Shown piece after piece: positions 41,278-57,072 of a DNA stretch of 62,917 nucleotides. The notes under the pieces are model-generated. The model was not told where the DNA came from and made no database searches. It worked only from the letters and a program-made list of their open reading frames with translations. Made by a program: the position numbers and the translations under genes. Positions within the stretch are counted from its first letter, which is position 1. Every line of letters starts with the position of its first letter. Source of the stretch: Gammaproteobacteria bacterium (GTDB lineage Bacteria > Pseudomonadota > Gammaproteobacteria > Arenicellales > Arenicellaceae); the NCBI GenBank assembly GCA_017854775.1, contig JAFMHC010000005.1, forward strand, positions 1-62,917. Reading direction: 5' to 3'.

Positions 41278-43422
41278 TTATTGAGCCTTATTGCTAATAA
41301 TTCGACGTCGTAACCAAGCGAAAGCGATTGGCATCATCAGCAATAAGGTCAGCGGACTGATAGCTCCGCCACCGCCACCACCGCTATAACTTGGGCGTTT
41401 AGTGGGGAACGCAGGCGTGTTTTGGTCGACTTGTTGCTGACTTACCGGCGACCCGGCGCGCTTGTTTTGAGCGGCTAGTTCTGATTCGCGACGCTCTCGG
41501 TTGTTACGCTTAATACCGTTGGCCTTAAATTGCTCGTCGGTCATGACAATCATCGAGGTGTAGTCGGTGACTAAACCATATTCGATTGCGGTGCTGATAA
41601 TCGCCGATGAGTCATCCTCTAGTTTTGTTCCAAGATAATTCGATTTATCTTTTAGCTGCGCGATGGTCGCGTACGCCCAGAGACGTTCTATTTCAGGGTT
41701 GCTGGTAGCCTGTTTTGGGAAAGAAAACTTAGTTTTATATTGTTTATCTTGGCCCGAAATCTTCGCATTTAGAACCGCCAGCGCTTGGCCATCACCGTAA
41801 TAATGACCAAAGATAACCATTTGTTGACCGCGATAAAGGGTTGCTGTTTTACTCGACACTAAGTCAGACGTTTTTATGCCCTTTATGTCCAGACTAACGT
41901 CGTGCATTGCCTGATACTTAACTTTTTCAATCGCACTCAGCATGACGCCCATAATGTCATCGCTATTTGAAACGCTAGTAGCGAAACCCTTAGAAGCCTT
42001 GGTCATTGCTTCAAGCATAGGTCGGTTGGCGCCATTGCCCATGATGGCGGTAAACAAACGCACATCTTGCTTGCTCATCAAGTCTAGAAAATGGTGTTTC
42101 TCTGTTTTACCAACGTTGGCAACACCATCGGTAATTAAGACGATGCTTGAAGTGCGGTCGCTGTCTAGCTGACTGATCGCCTTGTGCAAACCCTTATAGA
42201 GATCAGTGCCGCCGCGTGGCGACGAATTATCTAGGGCCTTGGTGATCTTGGCGACTGAAACGTCGCTGGCATTGATCCAGCCAGTGCCGAGCTCTTCAAC
42301 GCGGTCATCAAAAAGCAGTACACGAAAACGATCTTGATCTGAAAGTTTGCTTAGCGCTTGGCTGGTAGCATCCATAAGCGTTTGATACTTACCTGACATT
42401 GAGCCAGAGCGGTCAAGCACAAATACCCAGTCGCGGCCTTCTGTGATCGGTTGAAGGTCAACACCAGGGGTAACCGTTAGCATGAATGTGCCGCGGCGTT
42501 TGCCCGGCTCTCGATGAGCAACTAATTCTATCGCGCCTGGCAAGTCTTGCTGCAACCGCCAGTAAACGACCACGTCTTGATCGAGTGAACTTACCGGCCT
42601 ACCATGACTACCGATTTCAGCGCTAGCAAATTCGGCGATACGCTGATCTTCTCGGTTATCTATGTCAGTGCTATTCGGCTCAGCAACTATTGGTGCTGAA
42701 ACGGCTGTCCCATTGTTGCTGATTGCGAGCTGCCAATTCTGAGAGTCGGTCTTTAGTATCGTGGCGTGGCTATGAGCCGGCGCACGAACAGCATCAATCG
42801 GAAAGCCAGAACGAAGCTTCAGATCGAAATTGAAGCTACTACTGACCTTACTATCGGTTTGCCAGAAATCGATCTTGGCCTGGTCTGTGCTGCCGTCCTC
42901 TAACGGGTAAACATAGCGGCCAATACCGCCTTCTACATCGGCTGCTTGCATATACACCAAGCGTGTTTTGGTTGTTTGCTGAGGTCGCACTGGCGATATG
43001 CTCGATTGAAAACGAAAGAATGATTTTTTCTCGGTTAAACCCGCGTCTCGCCCAGCGGCCTTCTCTGTTTCATAGAGCTGCTTGGCGCGTTGTTTCTCGA
43101 CGACTTCACCAATAATTGGCTTATTGTCGATCCACACGGTGAATTCCGCTACTGAGCCATTCTCTGGAACGGGGAACTCGTAAACAGCTTCGAGTTCACT
43201 GCTTGATGGGTTGAAAAAGGTATTTTCAACTGTGGTGATGGCGTAGCCATCTTCAATCGTCACCGAGACGATGTGATCTTGAATTTGTAATTGAGTATTA
43301 CTGCCTTTGGGCGTGAGAAGGCCACTGGCATTTACTTGAGTAATACCTATTAATAAGCAACCGATCAGTAAGTAGCCTAAGGTGATAGCCGATGATTTAA
43401 CTTGGTTTACTAACGTATTCAT
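41278..43422 (-). CDS. VIT and vWA domain protein with a GlyGly-CTERM tail
   Basis: 714 residues. Signal peptide (about 10-32), VIT domain (about 45-170; YEFPVPENGSVAEFTVWID), vWA domain (about 330-500) with MIDAS LDRSGSMS, and a C-terminal tail of glycines, one hydrophobic helix and basic residues (GGGGGGAISPLTLLLMM then RRR). This architecture is that of the marine proteobacterial sortase target family, but the tail is of the rhombosortase type. It is probably moved to or released from the outer membrane after cleavage. The ligand is unknown. Confidence 0.9.
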   Translation of the reverse strand: MNTLVNQVKSSAITLGYLLIGCLLIGITQVNASGLLTPKGSNTQLQIQDHIVSVTIEDGYAITTVENTFFNPSSSELEAVYEFPVPENGSVAEFTVWIDNKPIIGEVVEKQRAKQLYETEKAAGRDAGLTEKKSFFRFQSSISPVRPQQTTKTRLVYMQAADVEGGIGRYVYPLEDGSTDQAKIDFWQTDSKVSSSFNFDLKLRSGFPIDAVRAPAHSHATILKTDSQNWQLAISNNGTAVSAPIVAEPNSTDIDNREDQRIAEFASAEIGSHGRPVSSLDQDVVVYWRLQQDLPGAIELVAHREPGKRRGTFMLTVTPGVDLQPITEGRDWVFVLDRSGSMSGKYQTLMDATSQALSKLSDQDRFRVLLFDDRVEELGTGWINASDVSVAKITKALDNSSPRGGTDLYKGLHKAISQLDSDRTSSIVLITDGVANVGKTEKHHFLDLMSKQDVRLFTAIMGNGANRPMLEAMTKASKGFATSVSNSDDIMGVMLSAIEKVKYQAMHDVSLDIKGIKTSDLVSSKTATLYRGQQMVIFGHYYGDGQALAVLNAKISGQDKQYKTKFSFPKQATSNPEIERLWAYATIAQLKDKSNYLGTKLEDDSSAIISTAIEYGLVTDYTSMIVMTDEQFKANGIKRNNRERRESELAAQNKRAGSPVSQQQVDQNTPAFPTKRPSYSGGGGGGAISPLTLLLMMPIAFAWLRRRIISNKAQ

Positions 43423-43689: not shown

Positions 43690-46182
43690 TTGAAACCGAA
43701 CGAATCCTTAGCGTGCTCGTTGATAGCATCAGATCGAGTAAATCAGGAAATGTTGGTATCGCGATGGGCAATGATTGTCTATTTGACGGGTGTAAATGAG
43801 ATTGTTACTATGCAGACCAGTACAGAAATCACTAGAAAACCTTATAGCCTAGTAGGTTGTGGCTTTGCTGTAGGCATTAAAAGGGGCTTAGGAGCTGAAC
43901 GTTTGACTATTCAACCGAATGTAACTGAGCAAATTGCCTGCAGCTTTTTCTTGCTCGGACCGTTCGCCGTAATTGATCGGCAAGGCAATGTAATTACGCC
44001 CAAGGCTCAAAAGACCTGCGCCATGCTGGCGATGTTAATTCTCTCCCCGCGTGCTACCAGAACCCGTGTATGGCTTCGCGATAAACTTTGGAGTGACCGC
44101 TCAGAGGGGCAAGGGGCTGCGAGCCTCCGCCAAGCACTACTGGATGCTAGGCGGTCGCTAGGCGAGTTAGGTTGTGAGGTAATTCTCGCCGATAAGAAAT
44201 CGATTTCTTTGGATTTAACTAAAATCACACTCGATACCGATGGTCTGCTATCGAGTGAGCACCAGCTGACGTCTGATCGCGAGGAATTGGAGCGTGCACT
44301 CAATGAAGACTTGCTTGAGGGTATGGATATCCGCGACCCCGAATTCGAAGACTGGCTAACGCTGGAGCGGCAAGTATGGCAGCGACGCGTTACTCAACAG
44401 CTCGAGTCAGAGAGTACGGTGGTGCCATTTGTTGATCAGCAATCTGAGCTACGGAACACCGGTCAAAAAATAGTTACCACGACGCTGATTATTCGCTTAG
44501 GCAATAATCAGCGGCCTACAAGTGGCGCTCAAGTTAACGATTGCATAGCCCGAGTTCGTGACGCCTGCGTTGATAGCGGCGGTCGAATATTTGATATACA
44601 ACAACAGCATGTATCGATGGAGTTTCAACGCCCGCATGATGCGGTGCGTTTCGCGATGATGGTATCTAGGAGCTTGAATGAGCTTCTGGAGTCGCCATTG
44701 AGTATCGGAATTGGTATCAATAGCGGCTTGGTTTACCGAGATCACAATAGACTTTACGGTACCGAGGTTGATATTGCGTTTGCAGCCAGCAATAACGCTC
44801 AGCAACACACCGTGATGATTACTGAGGCGACAGCGACCTTAGTGCAAGGCAAGATTGACTATCAACTAAGCTTTGATCAAGAGTGTTCAGTAAGTGATAT
44901 GGCTGGCCCTATTCGCTTATTCGCGGTGACCGATGGTGCCGCTAAGCAAGTGTCCTCTGAGCTAGAACAAGCGATGAACAGCAGTTTTTCCGGCACGGAC
45001 GGGCCGTCGATCGGTGTTCTACCGTTTCGAGTCGCTGACGACTCTGTTCACGAATACATGAGTGAAGGCTTAGCCGACGATATAATTTTAGCCTTATCGA
45101 ATAATCATTGGCTCAATGTAATCTCACGTAACTCTAGTTTTTCCTATCAGTACGATTCGGCTAATTCGAAAATGGTAGCTAACCAGCTCAAGGTTAACTA
45201 CATCGTCGGTGGCACCGTTAAAGTTTTAAATTCGGTGATAACTATCATCGTGACGCTCGAGAGTGTGACCTCTAATTGTATAATTTGGTCAGAATCATTT
45301 TCGGTAAAAATGACAGAAATAATGCATTTACAAGAGCGTATTGCGACCAAGGTTACCGCGCATTTGTTACAGGAGCTTGGTAAGCATGAACAGGTTCGTG
45401 CGTATGAAAGCCGCATCGATGATTTGACCACTTGGCAGTTAGTACACCGAGGCCATTGGCATATGGCAAGGCGAACATCAACCGGCGTCGCGCGAGCAAA
45501 GAATCTGTACCAGCGTGCACTGGACCGTGACGAGTATCAATCGGATGCCTTGGTTGCATTAGCATGGTGGCATTTTTGGAAGGCTTGGTCTGAGCATGGT
45601 ATTGGCGAAACCGACTATGATTTAGACCAGTCGATGCGTTTATGCCGTCGGGCATTGTTAATGGATCGCTCTGATGGCCGCGTTCATGCATACCTAGGTG
45701 CGATTGCCATTATGCGCAATCAAGCGAGCAACGCAGTTGGCTTCTTTGATGAAGCAATACGCCTTAATCCGAGTTTGTCGTTTGCCTATTCGTCTCGAGG
45801 TAGTGCAAATTTGTTACTCGGTAAGCCTGAGCTGGCCCCGACCGATATTCGTAATGCGTTGGCCTTGAACCCAGCTGATTATTATCGTTTTCACAGCTTG
45901 TCAGAATTGGCCGCCGCCTATTACTTTTCATCTGATTTGGATAAAGCGATCGAGGCCGCTGAAAGCTCATCGTTTTTAGCGCCAAGATACTGGTATGCCC
46001 GTTTGATCAAAATTGCTTGTCTGATTACCCGAGATAACGCTGGAGATCGACAAGCCGCAGCAAAGGAAAAGGTCGAAATCACTAATCGGGATATTAATGT
46101 GAGTGATGAAAAAATTCGAGCAATCCCATTTATTAACCGTCAATACAATCAGCGGCTGATCGAAATTTACAAGGAGGTTTAG
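43690..46182 (+). CDS. SARP-like/cyclase-like/TolB-like/TPR regulator
   Basis: 830 residues as drawn. A winged-helix, SARP/OmpR-like domain (about 86-180; RVWLRDKLWSD, ASLRQALLDARRSL) and a BTAD-like helical segment (about 190-240) come first. Next is a class III cyclase-like domain (about 263-415; SIGIGINSGLVYRDHNRLYG) that lacks clear metal-binding aspartates, then a TolB/FlgO-like segment (about 440-535; IGVLPFRVADD, YIVGGTV) and TPRs (about 580-790). It is likely a DNA-binding sensor. The TTG at 43690 is uncertain: ATG 43750 and ATG 43810 are alternatives. It is two bases from the next gene. Confidence 0.82.
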   Translation: MKPNESLACSLIASDRVNQEMLVSRWAMIVYLTGVNEIVTMQTSTEITRKPYSLVGCGFAVGIKRGLGAERLTIQPNVTEQIACSFFLLGPFAVIDRQGNVITPKAQKTCAMLAMLILSPRATRTRVWLRDKLWSDRSEGQGAASLRQALLDARRSLGELGCEVILADKKSISLDLTKITLDTDGLLSSEHQLTSDREELERALNEDLLEGMDIRDPEFEDWLTLERQVWQRRVTQQLESESTVVPFVDQQSELRNTGQKIVTTTLIIRLGNNQRPTSGAQVNDCIARVRDACVDSGGRIFDIQQQHVSMEFQRPHDAVRFAMMVSRSLNELLESPLSIGIGINSGLVYRDHNRLYGTEVDIAFAASNNAQQHTVMITEATATLVQGKIDYQLSFDQECSVSDMAGPIRLFAVTDGAAKQVSSELEQAMNSSFSGTDGPSIGVLPFRVADDSVHEYMSEGLADDIILALSNNHWLNVISRNSSFSYQYDSANSKMVANQLKVNYIVGGTVKVLNSVITIIVTLESVTSNCIIWSESFSVKMTEIMHLQERIATKVTAHLLQELGKHEQVRAYESRIDDLTTWQLVHRGHWHMARRTSTGVARAKNLYQRALDRDEYQSDALVALAWWHFWKAWSEHGIGETDYDLDQSMRLCRRALLMDRSDGRVHAYLGAIAIMRNQASNAVGFFDEAIRLNPSLSFAYSSRGSANLLLGKPELAPTDIRNALALNPADYYRFHSLSELAAAYYFSSDLDKAIEAAESSSFLAPRYWYARLIKIACLITRDNAGDRQAAAKEKVEITNRDINVSDEKIRAIPFINRQYNQRLIEIYKEV

Positions 46183-46184
46183 CC

Positions 46185-49100
46185 ATGCCGAAGGTAAAAT
46201 ATTACGACCGGGTCGACGATCTAAAGTCGACCAATCTTGAGTCAAGCTTACCGCCGTTTGATATTGAAAAATTACGTAGCAAAGGGTTTCTTGCTAAGAC
46301 CTTAGCGCCACTCTTTAGAACCCCGTTAACCTTGCTCAAGCTATTGCGCTGGGGGTGCCCTACATTTTGTGTTGGCCGTATTGTGCTAGTAACTCGCGCT
46401 GACGATGTTCGAGAAGTGCTAACCAACACTAAAGTGTTTCACGTACCCTTTGGCATTGAGATGAAAGTGGTCAGTGGTGGTGGCGACTTTATTCTTGGAA
46501 CCAATGACGGTGCTGTATACCGAGCACAAAAAAAGGTCATTTTGAAAGCCTTTCCGCCTGACGAAATGACTGATCTTATCACCGAAATTACAAGTCACGC
46601 TGCAGAGCAGAGCATACGTACGATGTCATCGACGATGAACCCGGTCGATGTTCTTTTTAAACCGGCTGCACTGGCGGTGTGTGAACAATACTTCGGCTTA
46701 ATCATCGGTAACAAAGAGCGGTTTTATCAATCGTCGTTAGCGGTTAGTTCGCTATTGTTCGCCGATATGTCCGGTAGTGCCTCAGTGCGTGAGCTGGCGA
46801 TGAGTGGTGCGCAAACAATGTTAGAGGTCATCGACCACTCGATACGCCAAGCAAAGGGTTCTACTGATGTTCCGAAATCAGCATTAGCCAAGCTGCTTGA
46901 GGCGCATAAATCGAACCCTGACGATGTTCCGTTAAAAGATATTCGCGCCATTATGATGGGCATGATCCTCGGTTTTCTGCCGACCACTATGTTGGCATTA
47001 GGCAATGTGCTCGAAGTGATACTAGGCAAGGAGGAGGCACACGCAGCGGTATTAGCGGCGATCAACGAGGGTGACGACACTTTGTTATGCTCGGTAGTCG
47101 GCGAAGCAATGAGATTCAACCCAATTCAGATTGGGCCGTTTAGGGTTTGCCAGCAAGACTATGTTATTGCTGAGTCGACCAAGCGCAAAAAGAAAATTGC
47201 CAAGGGATCGTTGGTTATACCTTCGACGCTCTCGGCGATGTTTGATCCAACAAATATTGATCAGCCAGACGAGTTTCGGCCAAACCGCGAAGCCCGCGAT
47301 TCTATGATCTTCGGTTACGGTTTACACAGTTGTATTGGCGCACCAATGGCCAGAGCCTTTTCAACCCAAGCGGTTAAAGCGCTATTTGAGCTACCAGGCT
47401 TAAGGCGCGATCATGGTAAAGCGGGAAAGTTGACCCGAATTGGTATTTTCCCCGAGTCGATCAGCATGAGTTGGAAGCAACTGGATAAGGTCGGCGATCA
47501 ACAACAATGGTTTTCCACCGTTTGTATGCCAATCAAGAATACTGAGGCGCTTTCGGCCCTAGAGTCAGCGCTTGAGTCCTTGGGAAACGTCGCTTGCGGC
47601 TCGCCCGAGATAGAGTCTGGTAATCAATTATTGGTTGAGGCACTCAAGCTGTCTGATGTTATACATTTTGCCAGTGGCTGTATTAGTGCTGCCCATTTTG
47701 AAGGCAATGCCGACCAGGAAAAGGTCGTCGAGCCAGCGCATCTTTTATTTGAAATTTCGGGTGATTTGCCGGAACATTTATTGCTTGATCATTTTGCCAG
47801 CATTGCCGATCCAATACTCGGTAATGAGATAAAGGCCGCGGGTGACTACGCCCTTAGCAAGAAATTAGTCTCGGTTCTGATGGCAAACCGGCTACGCAAT
47901 GTCGACCCACTCAGTCTTAACCTAGGGCTAAATTTTAACGGCACGCCGGGGCATAGTGTTAAACGCATCAAGAAGGAAGCTGAGCTGTCAAAATTGATCT
48001 ACCAATTGGTGCTCAATGAAACTCAAACATCAGCAAGTAATTCGCTTGAGCGATTGAAGCAAATTCGTCAACAAGTTGCCTCTCAAGGAGACTTTAACTG
48101 GGCGTTTACCTCGGTGAGAAATCGTCTGTCTGAAGGAGAAAAAGGCCTATTAAAATATTTATTTGATTACCTTCGCCAACCTTGGTCACTGGCGCCAGTG
48201 ATCACCATCGCGTTTTTTATCTTAATAAATTTTCAAATTCTGGGCGGAGCCCAGTCTGGCTGGTGGGCAAATATCGGTCGTGTTGGTGCCGCAATCAGCA
48301 TGACGGTTATTGGTGCGGTGTTGCTCATCGGGTCAATTGCCAGCGCTGTTGTGGCCTATTTGCGTCGCTTGGAAACCCGTGATCCAGCAGACTTGATAGT
48401 GCCCGAGCAGGCCAACTATGACCAAGTAACCTTGAGAGAAAATCAGCTAAGGCATAATCATATGTTTTCCGTCTCGCGAATAAAAAATAGCTTTATGCGC
48501 TCGCTATTATTGAGAGGCGTTCTCTGGTCGATAAAGCTATCGGCAGGATATAAAAATTCACCCGGCGTTGTCTCGGTTATCAATTCAATACACTTTGCTC
48601 GCTGGGTGCGAATTCCGGGCACACGCCAACTGGTTTTTTTTAGTAATTATGGCGGTAGTTGGGAGTCCTATTTGGAGGACTTCATTACCAAGGCATCGGC
48701 CGGCCTAACCAGCATTTGGAGTAATACTGTTGGCTTTCCACGCACTCGATACCTCGCTCAAAGTGGTGCTAAATTAAGTGAGCCATTTAAATATTGGGCG
48801 AGGCAACAACAAAGGCCAACGCCATTTTGGTATGTGGCATACCCTAATGTGACTACCAAGGATATTCGCAAGAACGCGATGATACGTCAGGGCTTTGCCG
48901 GTATCAACGACGTGCGTGAGGCTGATCAATGGTTCTCGCTGTTTGGTTCTTCCTATCGCCCGCGCGCCAGTTTGGATAAGTCGAATATTCAATCTTTGTT
49001 ATTTGGTGGTATGGGTAAGCGCTTACCGCATAGCAAACTGTTGTTTATTTCGTTGGCTGAAAAAGGCAATCGAGCCGAGGTTAAAGCGCTATTGGCACAT

Positions 49101-50393
49101 ATAGTTGAGCAAGTTAATTTTGGTGAAAAGGCTTATAGCAATCCGGTCTGGCAAGTGGCATTCAGTTACCGAGGTTTACAACGCTTAGGCTTGTCTGATG
49201 AAACCGAACCTAATCGAATTTTTCCGAACGTATTTTGTCAAGGCGTAGATAGTGTTACGCGCTCACAAATTCTTGGTGATCGGGGGATGAGTCACCCCGA
49301 TAAATGGCGGTGGGGCAGCGGCGAAAATAGAGCCGACCTAGTGTTGATGTGCTACTTCGAAGAGCAAGCTCAGGCCGAGCCTAATCTGCGAAAATTAGGA
49401 GCATTAATTGATGCCGCAGAGGCTAAAATTGTTTGGCAGCAAGATTGTCAGGTAGAAATTAATGATCAAGGTAAGGCGGTTGAGCCGTTTGGTTATGTCG
49501 ATGGCATTTCGCAGCCAATCATCAAGGGCACGAGTCGCAGCCAGTACAGTGATCAGCAGGATCACTTGATCGCCCCTGGGGAAATTCTATGCGGATACCC
49601 TGATCAGCGCGACAATATTTCGCCCTCGCCGGTAGTCGGATTTGCCAAAGATATTGCCAATGTGCTGCCGCAAGAGCCATTTCAATCTAGGCCCGATGCG
49701 CGTAAAGATTTTGGCTTTAATGGCAGCTATCTGGTGATTCGTCAGTTGCAACAAAACGTCGATGCCTTTAACTCGTTTTGCGAAAGCAAATCTGAGGAGC
49801 TTAAACAGAGTAAAAAAATAGACTCGGCTAGTGCGGAATCGATCAGTGCTGACTGGATTGGCGCAAAAATGCTTGGGCGCTGGAAAGATGGTCGACCGCT
49901 GGTAAGGTTTCCGTCTGAGAATATGCTCGGTGAGGCGGGCAATAACTTTCGCTACCGTAAAGAAGATCCACAAGGTCTGCAATGCCCGCTTGGTTCACAT
50001 ATCCGCAGAGCAAATCCTCGAGATAGTTTGGGTGACGATACTGAAACTCAAATAGGCCTATCGAATCGGCATCGAATTTTACGCGTAGGGCGTTCGTATC
50101 AGCGAGATAATGGCAAGGAAAAAGGCTTGATGTTCATGTGTTTGAACGCCGACATTGAGCGCCAGTTCGAGTTCATACAGCAAACTTGGTTGGGTAATTC
50201 AGGCTTTCATGATCTGATGGGCGAAACCGACTCGATTACCGTCGGCCAATGCCCAATGAACAATAAGTTTACCATTCCATCGTATCAGGGCAGTACCACA
50301 CTGACCGGCCTGCAATCATTTGTGACCACCAAAGGCAGCGGCTATTTCTTTATGCCTGGGCGTCAGGCACTTAACTTTTTACTTAATTTATAG
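46185..50393 (+). CDS. Cytochrome P450 fused to a membrane hairpin and DyP-type peroxidase
   Basis: 1402 residues with a perfect AAGGAGG ribosome site inside the end of the regulator gene. The P450 domain (about 30-430) has EAMR (307-310) and the haem loop FGYGLHSCIG (Cys383). A ferredoxin-like linker domain (about 440-600) follows, then two membrane helices (about 667-686, 697-726). A second related segment (about 795-900) shares IHFA with the first. The DyP peroxidase (about 940-1402) has FGYVDGISQP (Asp1106), the proximal His in SHIRRANPR (His1272) and HRILRVGRSY. No signal peptide is seen, and the helix pair puts both haem domains on the same side, presumably the cytoplasm. The substrate is unknown. 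Confidence 0.92.
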   Translation: MPKVKYYDRVDDLKSTNLESSLPPFDIEKLRSKGFLAKTLAPLFRTPLTLLKLLRWGCPTFCVGRIVLVTRADDVREVLTNTKVFHVPFGIEMKVVSGGGDFILGTNDGAVYRAQKKVILKAFPPDEMTDLITEITSHAAEQSIRTMSSTMNPVDVLFKPAALAVCEQYFGLIIGNKERFYQSSLAVSSLLFADMSGSASVRELAMSGAQTMLEVIDHSIRQAKGSTDVPKSALAKLLEAHKSNPDDVPLKDIRAIMMGMILGFLPTTMLALGNVLEVILGKEEAHAAVLAAINEGDDTLLCSVVGEAMRFNPIQIGPFRVCQQDYVIAESTKRKKKIAKGSLVIPSTLSAMFDPTNIDQPDEFRPNREARDSMIFGYGLHSCIGAPMARAFSTQAVKALFELPGLRRDHGKAGKLTRIGIFPESISMSWKQLDKVGDQQQWFSTVCMPIKNTEALSALESALESLGNVACGSPEIESGNQLLVEALKLSDVIHFASGCISAAHFEGNADQEKVVEPAHLLFEISGDLPEHLLLDHFASIADPILGNEIKAAGDYALSKKLVSVLMANRLRNVDPLSLNLGLNFNGTPGHSVKRIKKEAELSKLIYQLVLNETQTSASNSLERLKQIRQQVASQGDFNWAFTSVRNRLSEGEKGLLKYLFDYLRQPWSLAPVITIAFFILINFQILGGAQSGWWANIGRVGAAISMTVIGAVLLIGSIASAVVAYLRRLETRDPADLIVPEQANYDQVTLRENQLRHNHMFSVSRIKNSFMRSLLLRGVLWSIKLSAGYKNSPGVVSVINSIHFARWVRIPGTRQLVFFSNYGGSWESYLEDFITKASAGLTSIWSNTVGFPRTRYLAQSGAKLSEPFKYWARQQQRPTPFWYVAYPNVTTKDIRKNAMIRQGFAGINDVREADQWFSLFGSSYRPRASLDKSNIQSLLFGGMGKRLPHSKLLFISLAEKGNRAEVKALLAHIVEQVNFGEKAYSNPVWQVAFSYRGLQRLGLSDETEPNRIFPNVFCQGVDSVTRSQILGDRGMSHPDKWRWGSGENRADLVLMCYFEEQAQAEPNLRKLGALIDAAEAKIVWQQDCQVEINDQGKAVEPFGYVDGISQPIIKGTSRSQYSDQQDHLIAPGEILCGYPDQRDNISPSPVVGFAKDIANVLPQEPFQSRPDARKDFGFNGSYLVIRQLQQNVDAFNSFCESKSEELKQSKKIDSASAESISADWIGAKMLGRWKDGRPLVRFPSENMLGEAGNNFRYRKEDPQGLQCPLGSHIRRANPRDSLGDDTETQIGLSNRHRILRVGRSYQRDNGKEKGLMFMCLNADIERQFEFIQQTWLGNSGFHDLMGETDSITVGQCPMNNKFTIPSYQGSTTLTGLQSFVTTKGSGYFFMPGRQALNFLLNL

Positions 50394-50473: not shown

Positions 50474-51379
50474 TTAGTTGCTAAGCGCATTCGCGGCCTT
50501 AGATTGATTGACCCGGTTTAAACGCTTGGAAATAAAATTTCCAGTATCAACAATCGACTCCAGGTTTACCCCAGTCTCAATGCCTAAGCCGTTTAATAAG
50601 TACAACACATCTTCAGTTGCGACATTGCCCGAGGCACCCTTGGCATACGGGCAGCCGCCGAGTCCGGCGACCGAGCTGTCAATGGTTGAGATACCTGCCT
50701 CAAGTGCGGCGACGATGTTGGCGACTGCTTGACCATAGGTATCGTGGCAATGAATCGCTAATCTGTCTACCGCCACCCGGCTTTTGACCGCTTCGATCAT
50801 GGCTCTCACATTGTTTGCAGTGCCTACTCCAATAGTATCGCCTAAGGATATTTCATAGCAGCCTAAATTAATTAGCTGCTGACTTACCTTAGCAACTTGT
50901 TGTGGTGAAATTGCGCCGTCATATGGGCAGGCTATTACGCAAGAAACATATCCCCTAACTCGAATATTATTATGTCGAGCCTTTTCTACAACAGCCTCAA
51001 AGCGAGCGAGACTTTGTTCAATACTGCAATTAATGTTTTTTTGTGAAAAACCTTCGGATGCAGCTGCGAATACGGCGATTTCATCAACACCTGATGCAAT
51101 CGCGCTGTCTAAGCCTTGAAGGTTTGGGGTCAGAGCTGAATAGGTGATACCAGTCTGACGGTTTATCTGCTGAAACAGCTGGTCAGAACTTGCCATTTGA
51201 GGCACCCATTTGGGCGACACAAAACTGCCAGCCTCAATGTTCGTCAAGCCTGATTGGGATAAGCGATTAACCAATTCTACTTTATCTTTGACTGATAAAA
51301 GCTCGGCTTCGTTTTGTAGGCCGTCACGCGGGCCTACTTCAAATATTCTGGCCGATGTCGGCAGGCTGACATTACTCAT
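50474..51379 (-). CDS. liuE: Hydroxymethylglutaryl-CoA lyase
   Basis: 301 residues. It cleaves HMG-CoA to acetoacetate and acetyl-CoA, the last step of leucine breakdown. The TIM barrel start EVGPRDGLQNE, the metal ligands CHDTYGQA and the catalytic cysteine loop GLGGCPYAKGASGN are present. The start overlaps the MccA stop by one base (TGATG). It ends the liuABCDE operon. Confidence 0.96.
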   Translation of the reverse strand: MSNVSLPTSARIFEVGPRDGLQNEAELLSVKDKVELVNRLSQSGLTNIEAGSFVSPKWVPQMASSDQLFQQINRQTGITYSALTPNLQGLDSAIASGVDEIAVFAAASEGFSQKNINCSIEQSLARFEAVVEKARHNNIRVRGYVSCVIACPYDGAISPQQVAKVSQQLINLGCYEISLGDTIGVGTANNVRAMIEAVKSRVAVDRLAIHCHDTYGQAVANIVAALEAGISTIDSSVAGLGGCPYAKGASGNVATEDVLYLLNGLGIETGVNLESIVDTGNFISKRLNRVNQSKAANALSN

Positions 51380-53367
51380 CAGGGCTTCTCATCACTGGCA
51401 GTATCTGTTGTAAAAGTAAGTAGTTCAGAGCCGCCATCGACCAGCTCTCCTTTAGCGTAAAATACGTCAACGATACAGCCACCACTAGGCGCTTTAATGG
51501 CATGCTGCATTTTCATCGCCTCCATAATAATTAAGCTGTCGCCCTCTTTTACTCGGCTGCCAGCTTCGACTAGTACATCAACGACGGTGCCGTTCATCGG
51601 CGCATTAAAATGACTATTTGAGGTGGCATCTTGAGCATCGCCATAATCGCGCTGGGCGATATCAAAGGCGATCGTTTGACCGTCGATAAATAAGCTATAG
51701 CCGACAAGGCTCTTAAGTATTGTTACGCGTTGGTTATGGCCATTGACAGTGGCTTGAAGTTCGCCGTCAACGTATCTGCCAGCAACATCATAGCTATTGT
51801 CGTCAACGTTAATTCGGTAGCTCTGAGTGCTTGGCTTATGTTCTATTTCAGCGATGTAATCTTGCTGATCAATAGACAGTGTTAATCGCTGAGTATTACT
51901 TTGATTCAACCGCCAGGTATTTATTTTTGTCCACGGCGTATCGGCTTTGCTTTTATTTAAGATCAAAAATAGACTGACCAAAGGCAATACCACGTAAGAG
52001 TCGATGGTCGGCTTTTGGAATAAGTCATCAGCATGTTTTTCGATAAAACCAGTATCCAGTTCGGCATTAGCAAAAGCGGTATGACTGGCTAATGTGCGCA
52101 GAAACGAAACGTTACTGGTGATGCCGCTAATGTTGTATTGATCTAAAGCCGTCACCAATTTATTCAACGCCAGTGCTCGAGTCTCAGCCCAAACTACCAG
52201 CTTAGAAATCATCGGGTCGTAGAAAGGGCTAACCTCGTCGCCAGCAACGACTCCTGTGTCGATGCGAACTGTTTTATTGGTTTCAGGTAGCTTCAAGCCG
52301 ATCAGTTTGCCAGCGGTAGGTAGAAAATCGTTATATGGATCTTCGGCGTAAACACGTGCCTCGAAGGCATGCCCGTGAATTTTCAAGTCGGCTTGTTTGG
52401 CGGGTAATCGCTCACCGGCTGCGACTAATAGTTGCCACTCGACTAAATCTTGGCCGGTGATCATTTCGGTAACGGGGTGTTCTACCTGAAGGCGCGTGTT
52501 CATTTCCATAAAGTAGAAAGAGCCATCTTGGTCTAATAGAAACTCAACGGTACCGGCTCCTTGATAATCGATTGCCTGCGCAGCTCGAACTGCAGCGTCG
52601 CCCATTTTTTCACGAAGTTGCGCTGAGAAATTAGGCGCAGGAGCTTCTTCAATTACTTTCTGATGTCGCCGTTGTACCGTGCAATCGCGCTCAAATAAAT
52701 GTAGGGCATTGCCATGTGAATCACAGAATACTTGAAATTCGACGTGGCGGGGTGCGGTTAAATATTTTTCGACCAACATGTCGTCGTTGCCAAAACTAGA
52801 GAGTGCTTCTCGTTTTGCCGCATCTAACTCGTTATCAAACTCGGCTTCAGACCATACCTGACGCATGCCTTTGCCGCCACCGCCGGCAATTGCTTTTAGT
52901 AGCACCGGATAGCCCATGTCGTTTGCAGCATTCTTTAAAATCTGAGGGCTAGGGTCTTCGCCATGGTATCCGGGTACTAGCGGTACACCGGCTTTTTCCA
53001 TGATCGTTTTAGCGGCTGATTTTGAACCCATCGCTTTGATTGCAGGAATAGGTGGGCCGATAAATACCAGTTTATTATCATGGCATGCTTGCGCGAACTT
53101 GGCATTCTCGGATAGAAAACCATAGCCCGGATGAATCGCCTGAGCGCCTGTTTTTAAGGCGGCGGCTATGATTTTTTCAATAACTAAATACGATTCACTG
53201 GAAGCTGCTGGCCCGATGTGAATCGCTTCATCGGCCAATTTTACGTGTAAAGAATTTCGGTCTGCTTCAGAATAGACGGCCACGGTTTTAACACCAAGCC
53301 GCTTGGCTGTGTTAATAACTCGACAAGCAATTTCGCCTCGATTGGCAATAAGTATTTTATTAAACAT
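51379..53367 (-). CDS. liuD: 3-methylcrotonyl-CoA carboxylase, biotin-carrying alpha subunit
   Basis: About 662 residues from ATG 53367. The biotin carboxylase half (about 1-450; ILIANRGEIACRV, the ATP-grasp loop GGGGKGMRQVW, and EMNTRLQVEHPV) is followed by a BT-like linker domain and a C-terminal biotinyl domain with the lysine in EAMKMQH. It works with LiuB. The frame opens upstream to 53424 but the family start is MFNKILIANRGE. Confidence 0.96.
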   Translation of the reverse strand: MFNKILIANRGEIACRVINTAKRLGVKTVAVYSEADRNSLHVKLADEAIHIGPAASSESYLVIEKIIAAALKTGAQAIHPGYGFLSENAKFAQACHDNKLVFIGPPIPAIKAMGSKSAAKTIMEKAGVPLVPGYHGEDPSPQILKNAANDMGYPVLLKAIAGGGGKGMRQVWSEAEFDNELDAAKREALSSFGNDDMLVEKYLTAPRHVEFQVFCDSHGNALHLFERDCTVQRRHQKVIEEAPAPNFSAQLREKMGDAAVRAAQAIDYQGAGTVEFLLDQDGSFYFMEMNTRLQVEHPVTEMITGQDLVEWQLLVAAGERLPAKQADLKIHGHAFEARVYAEDPYNDFLPTAGKLIGLKLPETNKTVRIDTGVVAGDEVSPFYDPMISKLVVWAETRALALNKLVTALDQYNISGITSNVSFLRTLASHTAFANAELDTGFIEKHADDLFQKPTIDSYVVLPLVSLFLILNKSKADTPWTKINTWRLNQSNTQRLTLSIDQQDYIAEIEHKPSTQSYRINVDDNSYDVAGRYVDGELQATVNGHNQRVTILKSLVGYSLFIDGQTIAFDIAQRDYGDAQDATSNSHFNAPMNGTVVDVLVEAGSRVKEGDSLIIMEAMKMQHAIKAPSGGCIVDVFYAKGELVDGGSELLTFTTDTASDEKP

Positions 53368-53371
53368 AGCG

Positions 53372-54205
53372 TTACTCAGGTGAATTTTGTTGCCAAGACG
53401 GTGAGCGTTTTTCAAAGAACGCATTCAGCCCTTCTTGCCCTTGCTCTGATGCTCGCAGCCGGGCGATAACGTCGCTAGTCTCATTCATTAGCTGCTCATC
53501 AATACTGCAATGCGCAACTTGGCTAATCAATTGTTTAGAAATCTTAATTGCGTTGGGGCTATTGGCTAATAGCGCAACAATAAATTTCTCAAGAATATCG
53601 TCTAACTGTTCAAGTGCGGTAACTTCGCTTACCAAGCCTAGAGATCGGGCGGTATCGGCTGAGAAACGCTCGGCAGTAAGAAAATATCGACGGCATGCGC
53701 GTGCGCCAATGGCGGCAATAACGTAGGGCGAAATAGTCGCCGGCGCGATGCCAACCTTCACTTCGCTTAGGCAAAAGCTGGCGTTATCACTGGCGACCAC
53801 CATGTCGCAGCAACTCGCCAGACCGACCGCACCCCCATAGGCAGCACCTTGCACGCGCGCGATTGTCGGTACACTGAGCGTATTCAAGGTTTGCAGCATA
53901 ACTGCTAGTTTTCTTGCGTCGGCCAGGTTCTCTTGATACGAGAAATCAACCATGCGCTTCATCCAATTTAGATCACCACCAGCGGAAAAATTTTTACCGT
54001 TTGCAGCCAACACCATCAGCTTGACGTTCTGATCTTGATTGATCTGAGTGAATAAACTCGTCAGCTGGGCGATGATGACATCATCAAAGGCATTGTGTTT
54101 TTCTGGGTTATTCAAGGTGACAGTAGCGACCCCGCGTTGGTCTAGTTGATAGAGCACTGGCTCACTTACAACTTCTGAATTACTCATGTCTGTTGAATCA
54201 CTCAT
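53372..54205 (-). CDS. liuC: Methylglutaconyl-CoA hydratase
   Basis: 277 residues. Crotonase fold: NNPEKHNAFDD, the oxyanion loops KNFSAGGDLNWM and GAAYGGAVGLASCCDMVVA, and SEVKVGIAPATISPYV, where the acid residues lie. It hydrates 3-methylglutaconyl-CoA to HMG-CoA. It sits between liuB (gap 2 bases) and liuD (gap 4 bases). An alternative start is 54187. Confidence 0.94.
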   Translation of the reverse strand: MSDSTDMSNSEVVSEPVLYQLDQRGVATVTLNNPEKHNAFDDVIIAQLTSLFTQINQDQNVKLMVLAANGKNFSAGGDLNWMKRMVDFSYQENLADARKLAVMLQTLNTLSVPTIARVQGAAYGGAVGLASCCDMVVASDNASFCLSEVKVGIAPATISPYVIAAIGARACRRYFLTAERFSADTARSLGLVSEVTALEQLDDILEKFIVALLANSPNAIKISKQLISQVAHCSIDEQLMNETSDVIARLRASEQGQEGLNAFFEKRSPSWQQNSPE

Positions 54206-54207
54206 AG

Positions 54208-55827
54208 CTACATCCTGAACACGCCATAGCGTGTCTCTTCAATTTCTTTATTAAGTGAGGCCGAGATAGCTAACCCCAGCACTTGGCGAGTATCGGCAGG
54301 GTCGATAACGCCGTCATCCCAAAGTCGTGCAGAGGCATAATGTGCATGGGCTTGAGCTTCGTACTCATCAATAATGGGTTGCTTGAATGCGGTTTCGTCT
54401 TCGGCACTCCAGTGTTCACCAGACTTTTCTTTCTGGGCGCGTTTTACTTGAGATAAAACGCCGGCCGCTTGCTCGCCACCCATCACTGAGATGCGGGCGT
54501 TTGGCCACATGAACAAGAAGTTAGGGTCATAGGCGCGACCACACATCCCGTAATTTCCGGCGCCATACGAGTTACCTATCAGAACGGTGAATTTTGGAAC
54601 TTTGGCACAGGCCACAGCCATCACCATTTTTGCACCGTGCTTAGCAATGCCACCAGCTTCGTATTGCTTGCCGACCATAAAGCCGGTAATGTTTTGTAGA
54701 AACACCAAGGGAATTTTTCGTTGCGCACATAGCTCAATAAAATGAGCGCCTTTCTGTGCTGATTCGCTAAACAAGATACCATTATTGGCGACTATACCAA
54801 TAGGGTAACCCATAAGGCGGGCGAAGCCGCAGACTAGCGTAGTACCAAATAATGCTTTGAATTCATCAAACTCAGAGCCATCAACGATGCGCGCAATTAC
54901 CTCGCGCACATCAAAGGGCTGACGCTTGTCTTTAGGAATAATGCCGTACAATTCTTTACTGTCGTAGAGCGGTTCGACACTGTCTTTAACGTCTAATTGA
55001 TTGGGCTTAATGCGATTCAACCTGGCGATCGATTGGCGTGCTAGTTGTAGCGCATGACTATCGTTTTGAGCGTAGTGGTCAGACACCCCAGATTGGCGGC
55101 AATGCACATCGGCACCTCCCAATTCTTCGGCACTAACTACTTCACCTGTGGCCGCTTTTACCAGTGGCGGGCCAGCTAAAAAAATGGTCGCCTGATTAGC
55201 AACAATGATGGATTCATCAGCCATTGCAGGCACATAGGCACCACCTGCGGTACACGAGCCCATGACCACGGCAATCTGTGGAATATTTTGTGCTGACATA
55301 TTGGCTTGATTGAAGAATATACGACCAAAATGTTCTCGATCAGGGAACACTTCGTCTTGCCTAGGTAGATTGGCGCCACCCGAATCAACTAGGTAAATAC
55401 ACGGCAAGTGGTTTTGCTCGGCAATAGCCTGCGCGCGTAAATGTTTTTTAACCGTAAGCGGGTAGTAGCTGCCGCCTTTGACCGTCGCGTCATTGGCAAC
55501 AATCATACATTCTTGTCCGGCGACCACGCCAACGCCAGCAACGACTCCGGCACTGGCGACTTCTTCTCCGTCATAGACTTCATGAGCGGCTAATTGCGAT
55601 ATTTCTAAAAATGCCGAGCCCTCATCAATCAATTGATCGACACGATCCCGCGCCAAAAGTTTGCCGCGAGATTGATGCCGAGCTTGTCGGCTCTCACCAC
55701 CCCCCAATTTTATATGCTCAATTAGCGCATACAATTTATCCAGATGCGTTTGCATGTACTCGGCATTGGCAATGAAATCTTCAGAGCGTGTATTGATCTT
55801 GCTTTTAAGTTGGTTCATGGTGAGCAT
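54208..55827 (-). CDS. liuB: 3-methylcrotonyl-CoA carboxylase beta subunit
   Basis: 539 residues. Carboxyltransferase of the AccD/PccB class: [48 protein letters not shown] and [18 protein letters not shown]. It carboxylates 3-methylcrotonyl-CoA with the LiuD biotin. ATG 55818 is an alternative start with equally weak RBS context. Confidence 0.96.
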
Positions 55828-55865
55828 CTACTAATAATTTCTAATCATGGCTGGTTTACCCAATC

Positions 55866-55913
55866 TGCTGCTACTTAGGTCTGCTACTACGTTAGTCCGC
55901 TACTACTTAGTTT
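55866..55913. repeat. Degenerate tandem repeat, 16 bp x 3, ending on the liuA stop
   Basis: TGCTGCTACTTAGGTC (55866), TGCTACTACGTTAGTC (55882) and CGCTACTACTTAGTTT (55898-55913). The last unit includes the stop codon of liuA (55903-55905, minus strand), so the repeat extends downstream from the stop. Confidence 0.78.
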
Positions 55914-57072
55914 CGGCAAATAGTTCTCGGCCAATCAGCATGCGCCGAACTTCTGATGTGCCAGCCCCAATTTCGTATAGTTTAGCGTCACGAAGTAGCC
56001 GCCCTGTAGGGTATTCATTAACATAGCCGTTGCCACCCAGTGTTTGGATTGCTTGCAATGCCATTTGAGTCGCTTGCTCTGCGGTATAAAGAATCACCGC
56101 CGCCGCATCTTTACGGCTTTCGAGTCCGAGGTCACATGCTCTCGCGACCGCATACAGATACGCTCGGCTGGCACTTAAGGAGGTGTACATGTCGGCGATC
56201 TTGCCTTGCATTAATTGAAATTCGCCAATGCTCTTATCGAATTGTTTGCGCTCATGAATGTAAGGAACAACGACATCCATACAGGCCTGCATAATGCCCA
56301 CAGGGCCACCTGATAAGACCGTTCTTTCATAGTCTAAGCCCGACATCAAAACGCGTACGCCACCACCTTCAAAGCCCAAAATATTTTCTTCTGGAACCAA
56401 GCAGTCTTGAAAGACTAATTCGCAGGTATTGGAGCCGCGCATACCCAATTTGTCGAGCTTTTGCGCTTGGCTGAAACCAGTAAAGTCACGCTCGACAATA
56501 AACGCTGTGATGCCGCGTGAGCCACCGCTTATATCTGTTTTTGCATAGACAACATAGGTGTCGGCGTCGGGGCCATTGGTGATCCACATTTTATTACCAT
56601 TGAGCACATAATGATCGCCTTTTTTATCGGCTCTAAGCTTCATGCTTACCACATCTGAGCCAGCGTTCGGTTCTGACATTGCCAATGCGCCAACATGCTC
56701 GCCTGAGCAAAGCTTTGGCAGATATTTTTGTTTCTGTGCTTCGCTGCCGTTCTTATTTATTTGGTTCAGACATAGGTTTGAGTGTGCGCCGTATGACAAA
56801 CCGACTGACGCTGATGCTCTACTGATTTCTTCCATTGCCACGCAATGCGCCAAGTAACCCATATTGCTACCGCCATAGGCTTCATCGACGGTAATGCCTA
56901 GTAAGCCGAGGTCACCAAACTTGCGCCACAAGTCCATTGGGAATTCATTTTCCGAATCTATTTGTGCCGCTCTCGGGGCTATTTCCGCTTGCGCGAACTG
57001 GTAAGTCATATCACGCAACATATCAATCTCTTCACCGAGGTTGTGTTGCAAAGTTGGGTAAGAAACGGTCAT
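55903..57072 (-). CDS. liuA: Isovaleryl-CoA dehydrogenase
   Basis: 389 residues, FAD acyl-CoA dehydrogenase. The family signatures [30 protein letters not shown] and the C-terminal [21 protein letters not shown] are present; the catalytic Glu of this subgroup lies near [11 protein letters not shown]. It oxidises isovaleryl-CoA in leucine catabolism. It is the first enzyme gene after liuR, with an 86-base gap. Confidence 0.96.

Follow-up and report, generated by a model that had tools for sequence, protein, structure and literature searches.

The question raised by this locus is what a cytochrome P450 and a DyP peroxidase might do together on one bacterial polypeptide chain. The locus lies in a stretch of 62,917 nucleotides, here called the window (assembly GCA_017854775.1, contig JAFMHC010000005.1), from an Arenicella genome of the Gammaproteobacteria, in which the frame at 46185-50393 of the forward strand is one open reading frame (ORF) of 1402 amino acids (aa) with an ATG start and zero internal stops. 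An original prediction, made from the letters of the window, had read this frame as a P450, a pair of membrane helices and a DyP domain in a single 1402-residue chain, and the uninterrupted ORF bears this out. The P450 takes up aa 1-435, a part that we call MID aa 436-940 and the DyP aa 945-1402. An identical single-chain layout was found in 14 separate assemblies, complete plasmids among them, and a frameshift or mis-join of two separate genes is therefore excluded. A phage search gave no match. As read from its sequence, the product is a three-module, predicted two-haem protein, in which an ABM-type barrel anchored in the membrane joins a P450 to a DyP peroxidase. We tentatively propose that this membrane-tethered enzyme may work as a peroxide or hydroperoxide cascade on a hydrophobic, perhaps fatty-acid, substrate, a reading that we prefer while holding it with slightly less than even confidence.

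Neither half lacks the expected fold or haem ligand. Pfam matched p450 at aa 66-391 (E 4e-13) and Dyp_perox_C at aa 1178-1346 (E 5e-8), and the residues named in the original prediction (Cys383, ExxR, GxxDG and His1272) were all in place and invariant in the four Arenicella orthologues. The P450 domain (46185-47489), delimited by the Pfam match, an AlphaFold2 (AF2) model and a VIA fold match, has the features of its superfamily, namely the P450 fold, the ExxR motif (E307-R310, 47103-47114) and the Cys ligand loop FGxGxHxCxG, here FGYGLHSCIG with Cys383 (47331-47333) as haem-thiolate ligand, the two motifs being placed by alignment. The AF2 model (predicted local distance difference test, pLDDT, 85) has an ordinary bacterial P450 fold, and its best VIA matches were nearly tied: P450BioI in complex with fatty-acyl carrier protein (Z 35.5) and CYP109E1 (Z 35.4). 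CYP152 and CYP74 were not among the structural neighbours listed for this half, which excludes nothing.

The DyP domain, which together with the stop codon spans 49017-50393, matched NCBIfam TIGR01413 at aa 1083-1395 (E 9e-26, slightly under the curated cut-off of the model) and DyP structures in the PDB at E 2e-36. Besides the DyP fold it has the GxxDG motif (G1103-D1106-G1107, 49491-49505) with the distal Asp1106, the proximal haem ligand His1272 (49998-50000) and a distal Arg, Arg1300 (50082-50084). In the alignment with Bjerkandera DyP (2d3q), His1272 fell on His308 and the GxxDG Asp on its equivalent, and reading onward by eye from His308, Arg1300 would be the counterpart of Arg329. These catalytic residues, Arg1300 included, were conserved in all 47 aligned DyP rows. 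Both the fold family and the catalytic residues are thus common to this domain and known DyP peroxidases (closest PDB entry 8re3, ancestral D-type 7anv, Bjerkandera 2d3q and DyP2 4g2c), whereas the DyP described here is neither free-standing nor secreted but forms the C-terminal part of a membrane chain.

In the P450 half, the I-helix sets the fused proteins apart from classical monooxygenases. The acid-alcohol pair [A/G]Gx[D/E]T of the latter is not present; the Thr is retained and the acid lost, the motif reading GF[L/T/V/A/I/G]PT[T/N] with Pro in place of Asp or Glu in 14 of 14 fused P450s (GFLPTT in the window, with Pro266 at 46980-46982, as placed by the P450 alignment). Among 41 aligned P450s, the acid was missing in 25 of the 28 linked to a DyP, compared to one of seven ordinary P450s and none of six linked to RoxA-like proteins, all six of which have Glu at this position; for two of the DyP-linked rows (L039 and L112) the I-helix alignment is unsure because they sit on very long branches. 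Loss of the acid-alcohol pair is a mark of CYP152 peroxygenases, which carry Arg-Pro instead (PMC5818669), and the xPT[T/N] of the fused P450s fits the published I-helix motif (V/A)PxT of fungal 9S-AOS (PMC13049297). We regard this likeness of short motifs as a lead, not as proof. The self-sufficient hydroperoxide-rearranging P450s of animals, plants and fungi have other residues in the I-helix. Moreover, no electron-transfer partner (ferredoxin or reductase) was detected by Pfam within the fused chain, and none was found beside any locus examined. Since the acid is lost and no redox-partner gene is adjacent, the P450 half may act without NAD(P)H.

These observations bear on the possibility that the P450 is an ordinary monooxygenase driven by NAD(P)H and ferredoxin, and that the fused DyP scavenges the H2O2 leaked by P450 uncoupling. 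Such a role would fit a fold nearest to ordinary bacterial class I P450s, the retained Thr together with the IDTT of three P450s encoded by adjacent genes, and the finding that the same slot is filled by catalase-like proteins at other loci; it agrees poorly with the loss of the I-helix acid in all fused forms and the lack of neighbouring ferredoxin or reductase genes. In addition, some MID-DyP loci have a catalase-like protein and no P450, and leakage from a P450 can thus not explain the DyP there. Hence, we consider this explanation unlikely. The I-helix is degenerate in some relatives (GGPPQP) and the C-helix is changed, which would be expected if the P450 domain were catalytically dead and served a structural or substrate-binding role; fungal 10R-DOX-1, in which the fused P450-like part has no thiolate, provides a precedent (PMC13049297). 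However, the haem Cys and ExxR have been kept in 14 of 14 fused proteins across a large divergence, making a dead P450 highly improbable.

The part between the two haem domains proved to be more than the two adjacent membrane helices originally predicted. The hairpin is present (aa 667-690 and 697-727, 48183-48365) as judged by a hydropathy scan, is conserved in the orthologues and corresponds to helices 234-250 and 258-297 in the model of MID, but around it lies a third module with a fold of its own, MID (47490-49004), and the hairpin was therefore rejected as the sole connecting element. MID gave no significant sequence match in Pfam, NCBIfam or the PDB and was delimited by its homologues, the AF2 model and VIA. 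In other bacteria its equivalent is a separate protein of ~430-540 aa encoded just 5' of a free DyP gene. Profile-profile comparison (E 4e-8) identified two mutually homologous units with the hydrophobic hairpin in between, and at further loci each unit is a gene of its own of ~200 aa, mostly without a membrane segment. The AF2 model of MID (pLDDT 74) contains a pair of long helices besides two ferredoxin-like units. While Foldseek alone returned weak matches, re-alignment with VIA was informative, giving Z 12.7 to WhiE-ORFI (9lmn; 4.3 Å over 225 residues) and Z 11.3 to AbxO (9ltx; over 200 residues) compared to Z ~6 for unrelated rows. As modelled, MID has a tandem ferredoxin-like dimeric alpha/beta barrel fold of the ABM type, and the tandem barrel of these ABM/SchA-like proteins covers both MID halves. 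In contrast to them, MID matches no Pfam or PDB family in sequence and its two units are split by the membrane hairpin. The positive residues of this region lie mostly outside the hairpin, suggesting that both chain ends, and consequently both haem domains, are on the cytosolic side of the membrane.

The fusion is not confined to the window. Three other Arenicella genomes carry it at 63-70% identity (four of the 18 genomes of the genus in total), as do a metagenome-assembled genome (MAG) of Phyllobacteriaceae at 40% identity and six further genomes (G508, G618, G641, G644, G732 and G825) from three other families in another class of the same phylum. It is also found on three complete plasmids, namely p2 of Pararhizobium qamdonense (1423 aa, annotated "cytochrome P450"), pSpoCB-1 of Sulfitobacter (1620 aa) and pNL2 of Novosphingobium aromaticivorans DSM 12444 (SARO_RS19865, 1443 aa, annotated "Dyp-type peroxidase domain-containing protein"). 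The survey for the same fusion suggested at the outset thus returned three other Arenicella genomes and, besides these, at least ten more genomes or plasmids. The P450 tree gathers the 14 domains from fusions into a single group (99/100) and the RoxA-linked P450s into another (100/97), both apart from ordinary P450s, and by this tree the fused P450s are shown to be of single origin. The DyP tree requires two changes for the fused rows, either two gains or a gain plus a loss. The fused DyPs divide into the same subgroups as the fused P450s, indicating that the halves have been inherited together. For the MID-DyP proteins of the sister clade, the partner is a different P450 from the same wider group, or none was found.

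The same association recurs independently as unfused genes lying side by side. A P450 gene is located directly 5' of the MID-DyP gene in an Acidobacteria MAG, Phenylobacterium, Novosphingobium chloroacetimidivorans, Parvularcula, Sphingobium and, as a divergent member, Hellea, and 3' of the DyP gene in three genomes (G420, G687 and G717) and on a Skermanella plasmid. A survey of the phylum, using a profile of the MID-DyP columns only, matched 25 genomes; a P450 was present in 15 of these, fused in seven and adjacent in eight, while the remaining ten had a catalase-like partner (five), a RoxA-like di-haem protein (one) or no partner within the stretch read (four). Across the 42 loci tabulated, P450 and catalase-like partners were mutually exclusive. 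The genome of the window itself encodes a second DyP (493 aa; contig C174, L070:6067-8051) 3' of a single-unit ABM-like partner of 154 aa, with neither a membrane segment nor a P450.

This distribution is relevant for a third possibility, namely that a P450 peroxygenase and the DyP divide the labour as in CYP152, each using H2O2 on a substrate of its own, and are joined for co-localisation at the membrane with no channelling or sequence of reactions. The missing acid, the ability of both haem types to use peroxide and the adjacent unfused genes would all be compatible with this, and like CYP152 peroxygenases the fused P450s have another residue in place of the acid in the acid-alcohol pair and are predicted to use peroxide. 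Yet CYP152 enzymes have no fused partner and carry the Arg-Pro carboxylate motif where Pro-Thr is found here; lacking Arg-Pro and having GFxPT[T/N] instead, the fused P450s are not CYP152 members. Furthermore, the repeated partner-specific association and the co-inherited halves suggest a shared pathway, and we find a mere division of labour quite unlikely.

The catalase-like partners mostly fall below Pfam detection, and a single-sequence PDB search with one gave no match, although two divergent homologues pass the Pfam Catalase cut-off. In the main group (L059, L060, L068 and L116) the distal His of the HAK motif is apparently replaced by Asn (RGGNTKT), while it is kept in L118 and L123. Judging from their sequences, the main-group partners are probably not true catalases. 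In one genome (G828, L108:7188-9890) a DyP is joined to a catalase-like domain in a 900-aa ORF, a second type of DyP fusion, whose partner comes from a third haem family. The closest P450 relatives without a DyP in Gammaproteobacteria adjoin RoxA-like di-haem cytochromes at six of six loci (L061-L065 and L071, in G392, G240, G170, G155, G150 and G070), each with two CXXCH motifs or with these split over two ORFs. The RoxA-like family includes rubber dioxygenases as well as the oleate 10S-dioxygenase and diol synthase of Pseudomonas aeruginosa (PMC4496055). These P450s, members of the sister group, may stand for a P450-containing variant of the route that the oleate diol synthase serves in P. 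aeruginosa.

The rubber oxygenases among RoxA-like proteins also raise the question whether the substrate is aromatic or polymeric (lignin-like or isoprenoid) rather than a lipid signal or fatty acid. DyPs are known for acting on dyes and lignin models, and N. aromaticivorans, one of the fusion hosts, is a known degrader of aromatics. However, the chain is predicted to be membrane-tethered, shows no sign of export and probably has its domains in the cytosol, so that an extracellular polymer would be out of reach, and we judge such a substrate to be very unlikely.

We return to the peroxide or hydroperoxide cascade. Here the hairpin would anchor the protein in the inner membrane with the two haem domains on the cytosolic side, the DyP half would carry out a peroxide-dependent oxidation or oxygenation of a hydrophobic, probably unsaturated lipid-like substrate presented at the membrane by the MID barrel, and the P450 half would act on the DyP product as an NAD(P)H-independent hydroperoxide isomerase or lyase or as a peroxygenase. 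That DyPs are capable of alkene cleavage (PMC7181223) speaks for the DyP step. The channelled oxidation of a lipid or other hydrophobic substrate put forward in the original prediction is regarded here as a possibility. At other loci, a haem protein of the catalase-like or RoxA-like kind would stand in the third position. The idea of successive reactions is best supported by the origin of the third partner in three superfamilies, each with enzymes of fatty-acid hydroperoxide metabolism; members metabolising hydroperoxides are known in the RoxA-like superfamily (PMC4496055) and in the catalase-related superfamily (PMC5617202). A more specific and rather doubtful version would be that the DyP and its membrane ABM partner make a lipid hydroperoxide, which a third, interchangeable haem enzyme (a P450, a catalase-like or a RoxA-like protein) converts, with all steps united on one chain in the Arenicella, rhizobial, Sulfitobacter and Novosphingobium proteins as an independent invention of the fungal type of dioxygenase-P450 fusion.

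Several points weigh against the cascade. We know of no DyP that acts as a fatty-acid dioxygenase, and the substrate is the weakest step of the proposed mechanism. No recurrent neighbours that would name a substrate were found around the loci from the genome scan. The I-helix argument is a local one, given that a normal IDTT is retained in three P450s encoded by adjacent genes and the Thr in the fused ones, and the P450 half could be supplied by a ferredoxin from another part of the genome. The confidence of the MID model is moderate, the membrane topology is derived from hydropathy only, and the activity and in vivo haem binding of both domains are predictions.

The genes flanking the fusion provide some further context. 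Directly upstream (43690-46182, forward strand), with its stop codon 2 nucleotides 5' of the fusion ATG, lies a gene for a regulator-like protein of 830 aa, in which Pfam and NCBIfam indicate a weak HilA/SARP-like start, a degenerate cyclase-like part and TPR repeats. Homologues of this regulator, which span different classes, are found directly 5' of the fusion in Arenicella, Pararhizobium, Sulfitobacter, Novosphingobium, G508, G732 and G825. At the tabulated unfused loci no neighbouring homologue was found, and the fused enzyme is therefore mostly passed on together with the regulator, as an operon-like pair of genes. In other Arenicella, a gene of 160-165 aa (L031:12594-13076 and L032:12635-13132), SnoaL-like as judged by eye, that is missing from the window lies just 3' of the fusion. 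Convergent with the fusion in the window is a catabolic cluster of leucine/acyclic-terpene type (50474-57072, reverse strand) encoding HMG-CoA lyase, a biotin carboxylase subunit, enoyl-CoA hydratase, a carboxyltransferase and acyl-CoA dehydrogenase. Such a leucine/isovalerate-type cluster was not seen at other fusion loci, and we did not take it as functional evidence. On the other side of the regulator, a reverse-strand gene (41278-43422) encodes a VIT and VWA protein that resembles the sortase target family of marine proteobacteria (TIGR03788, under cut-off).

Lipid mediators of animals and fungi are produced by peroxidase and P450 enzymes that are fused or work in pairs, and few bacterial counterparts are known. 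The likeness to fungal psi-factor oxygenases drawn in the original prediction was strengthened by the missing I-helix acid, and the peroxidase family differs as claimed. Like the fungal dioxygenase-P450 (DOX-CYP) fusions (the psi-factor oxygenase PpoA, linoleate diol synthases and 8/9-DOX-AOS), the bacterial protein combines a haem peroxidase-type domain and an apparently self-sufficient P450 on one membrane-associated chain, with an HxCxG Cys loop. On the other hand, the peroxidase is a DyP and not of the animal/COX type, for which no N-terminal Pfam match was obtained in the fusion, the P450 comes first, and an ABM-type barrel with a hairpin lies in between. Because of the wrong peroxidase family and the reversed domain order, the protein is not a member of the psi-factor/DOX-CYP family; the fungal fusions, and animal COX with TXS or PGIS, may rather be regarded as functional analogues. 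The P. aeruginosa oleate 10S-DOX and diol synthase (PA2077/PA2078, RoxA-like FadCcp) resemble our proposal as a bacterial two-step haem oxylipin route, and the link is that RoxA-like proteins adjoin the nearest non-DyP P450 relatives and, in one locus, a DyP; those enzymes, however, are c-type di-haem proteins on separate chains, with neither P450 nor DyP.

The expectation that no system of this layout had been described agrees with our search of the open-access literature, which covered neither subscription papers nor preprints and returned no description of a DyP-P450 fusion, but the layout is not unique, being one fused form of a widespread association of P450, MID and DyP. In conclusion, there is a conserved protein family, spread over several families of bacteria from sea and soil, which combines a P450 devoid of the monooxygenase acid with a peroxidase of another fold and has cultivable members in N. 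aromaticivorans DSM 12444, Sulfitobacter and Pararhizobium. This makes it directly possible to test whether bacteria have a peroxidase-P450 cascade of independent or ancestral origin, and a physiological partner and a possible role are suggested for a group of bacterial DyPs.

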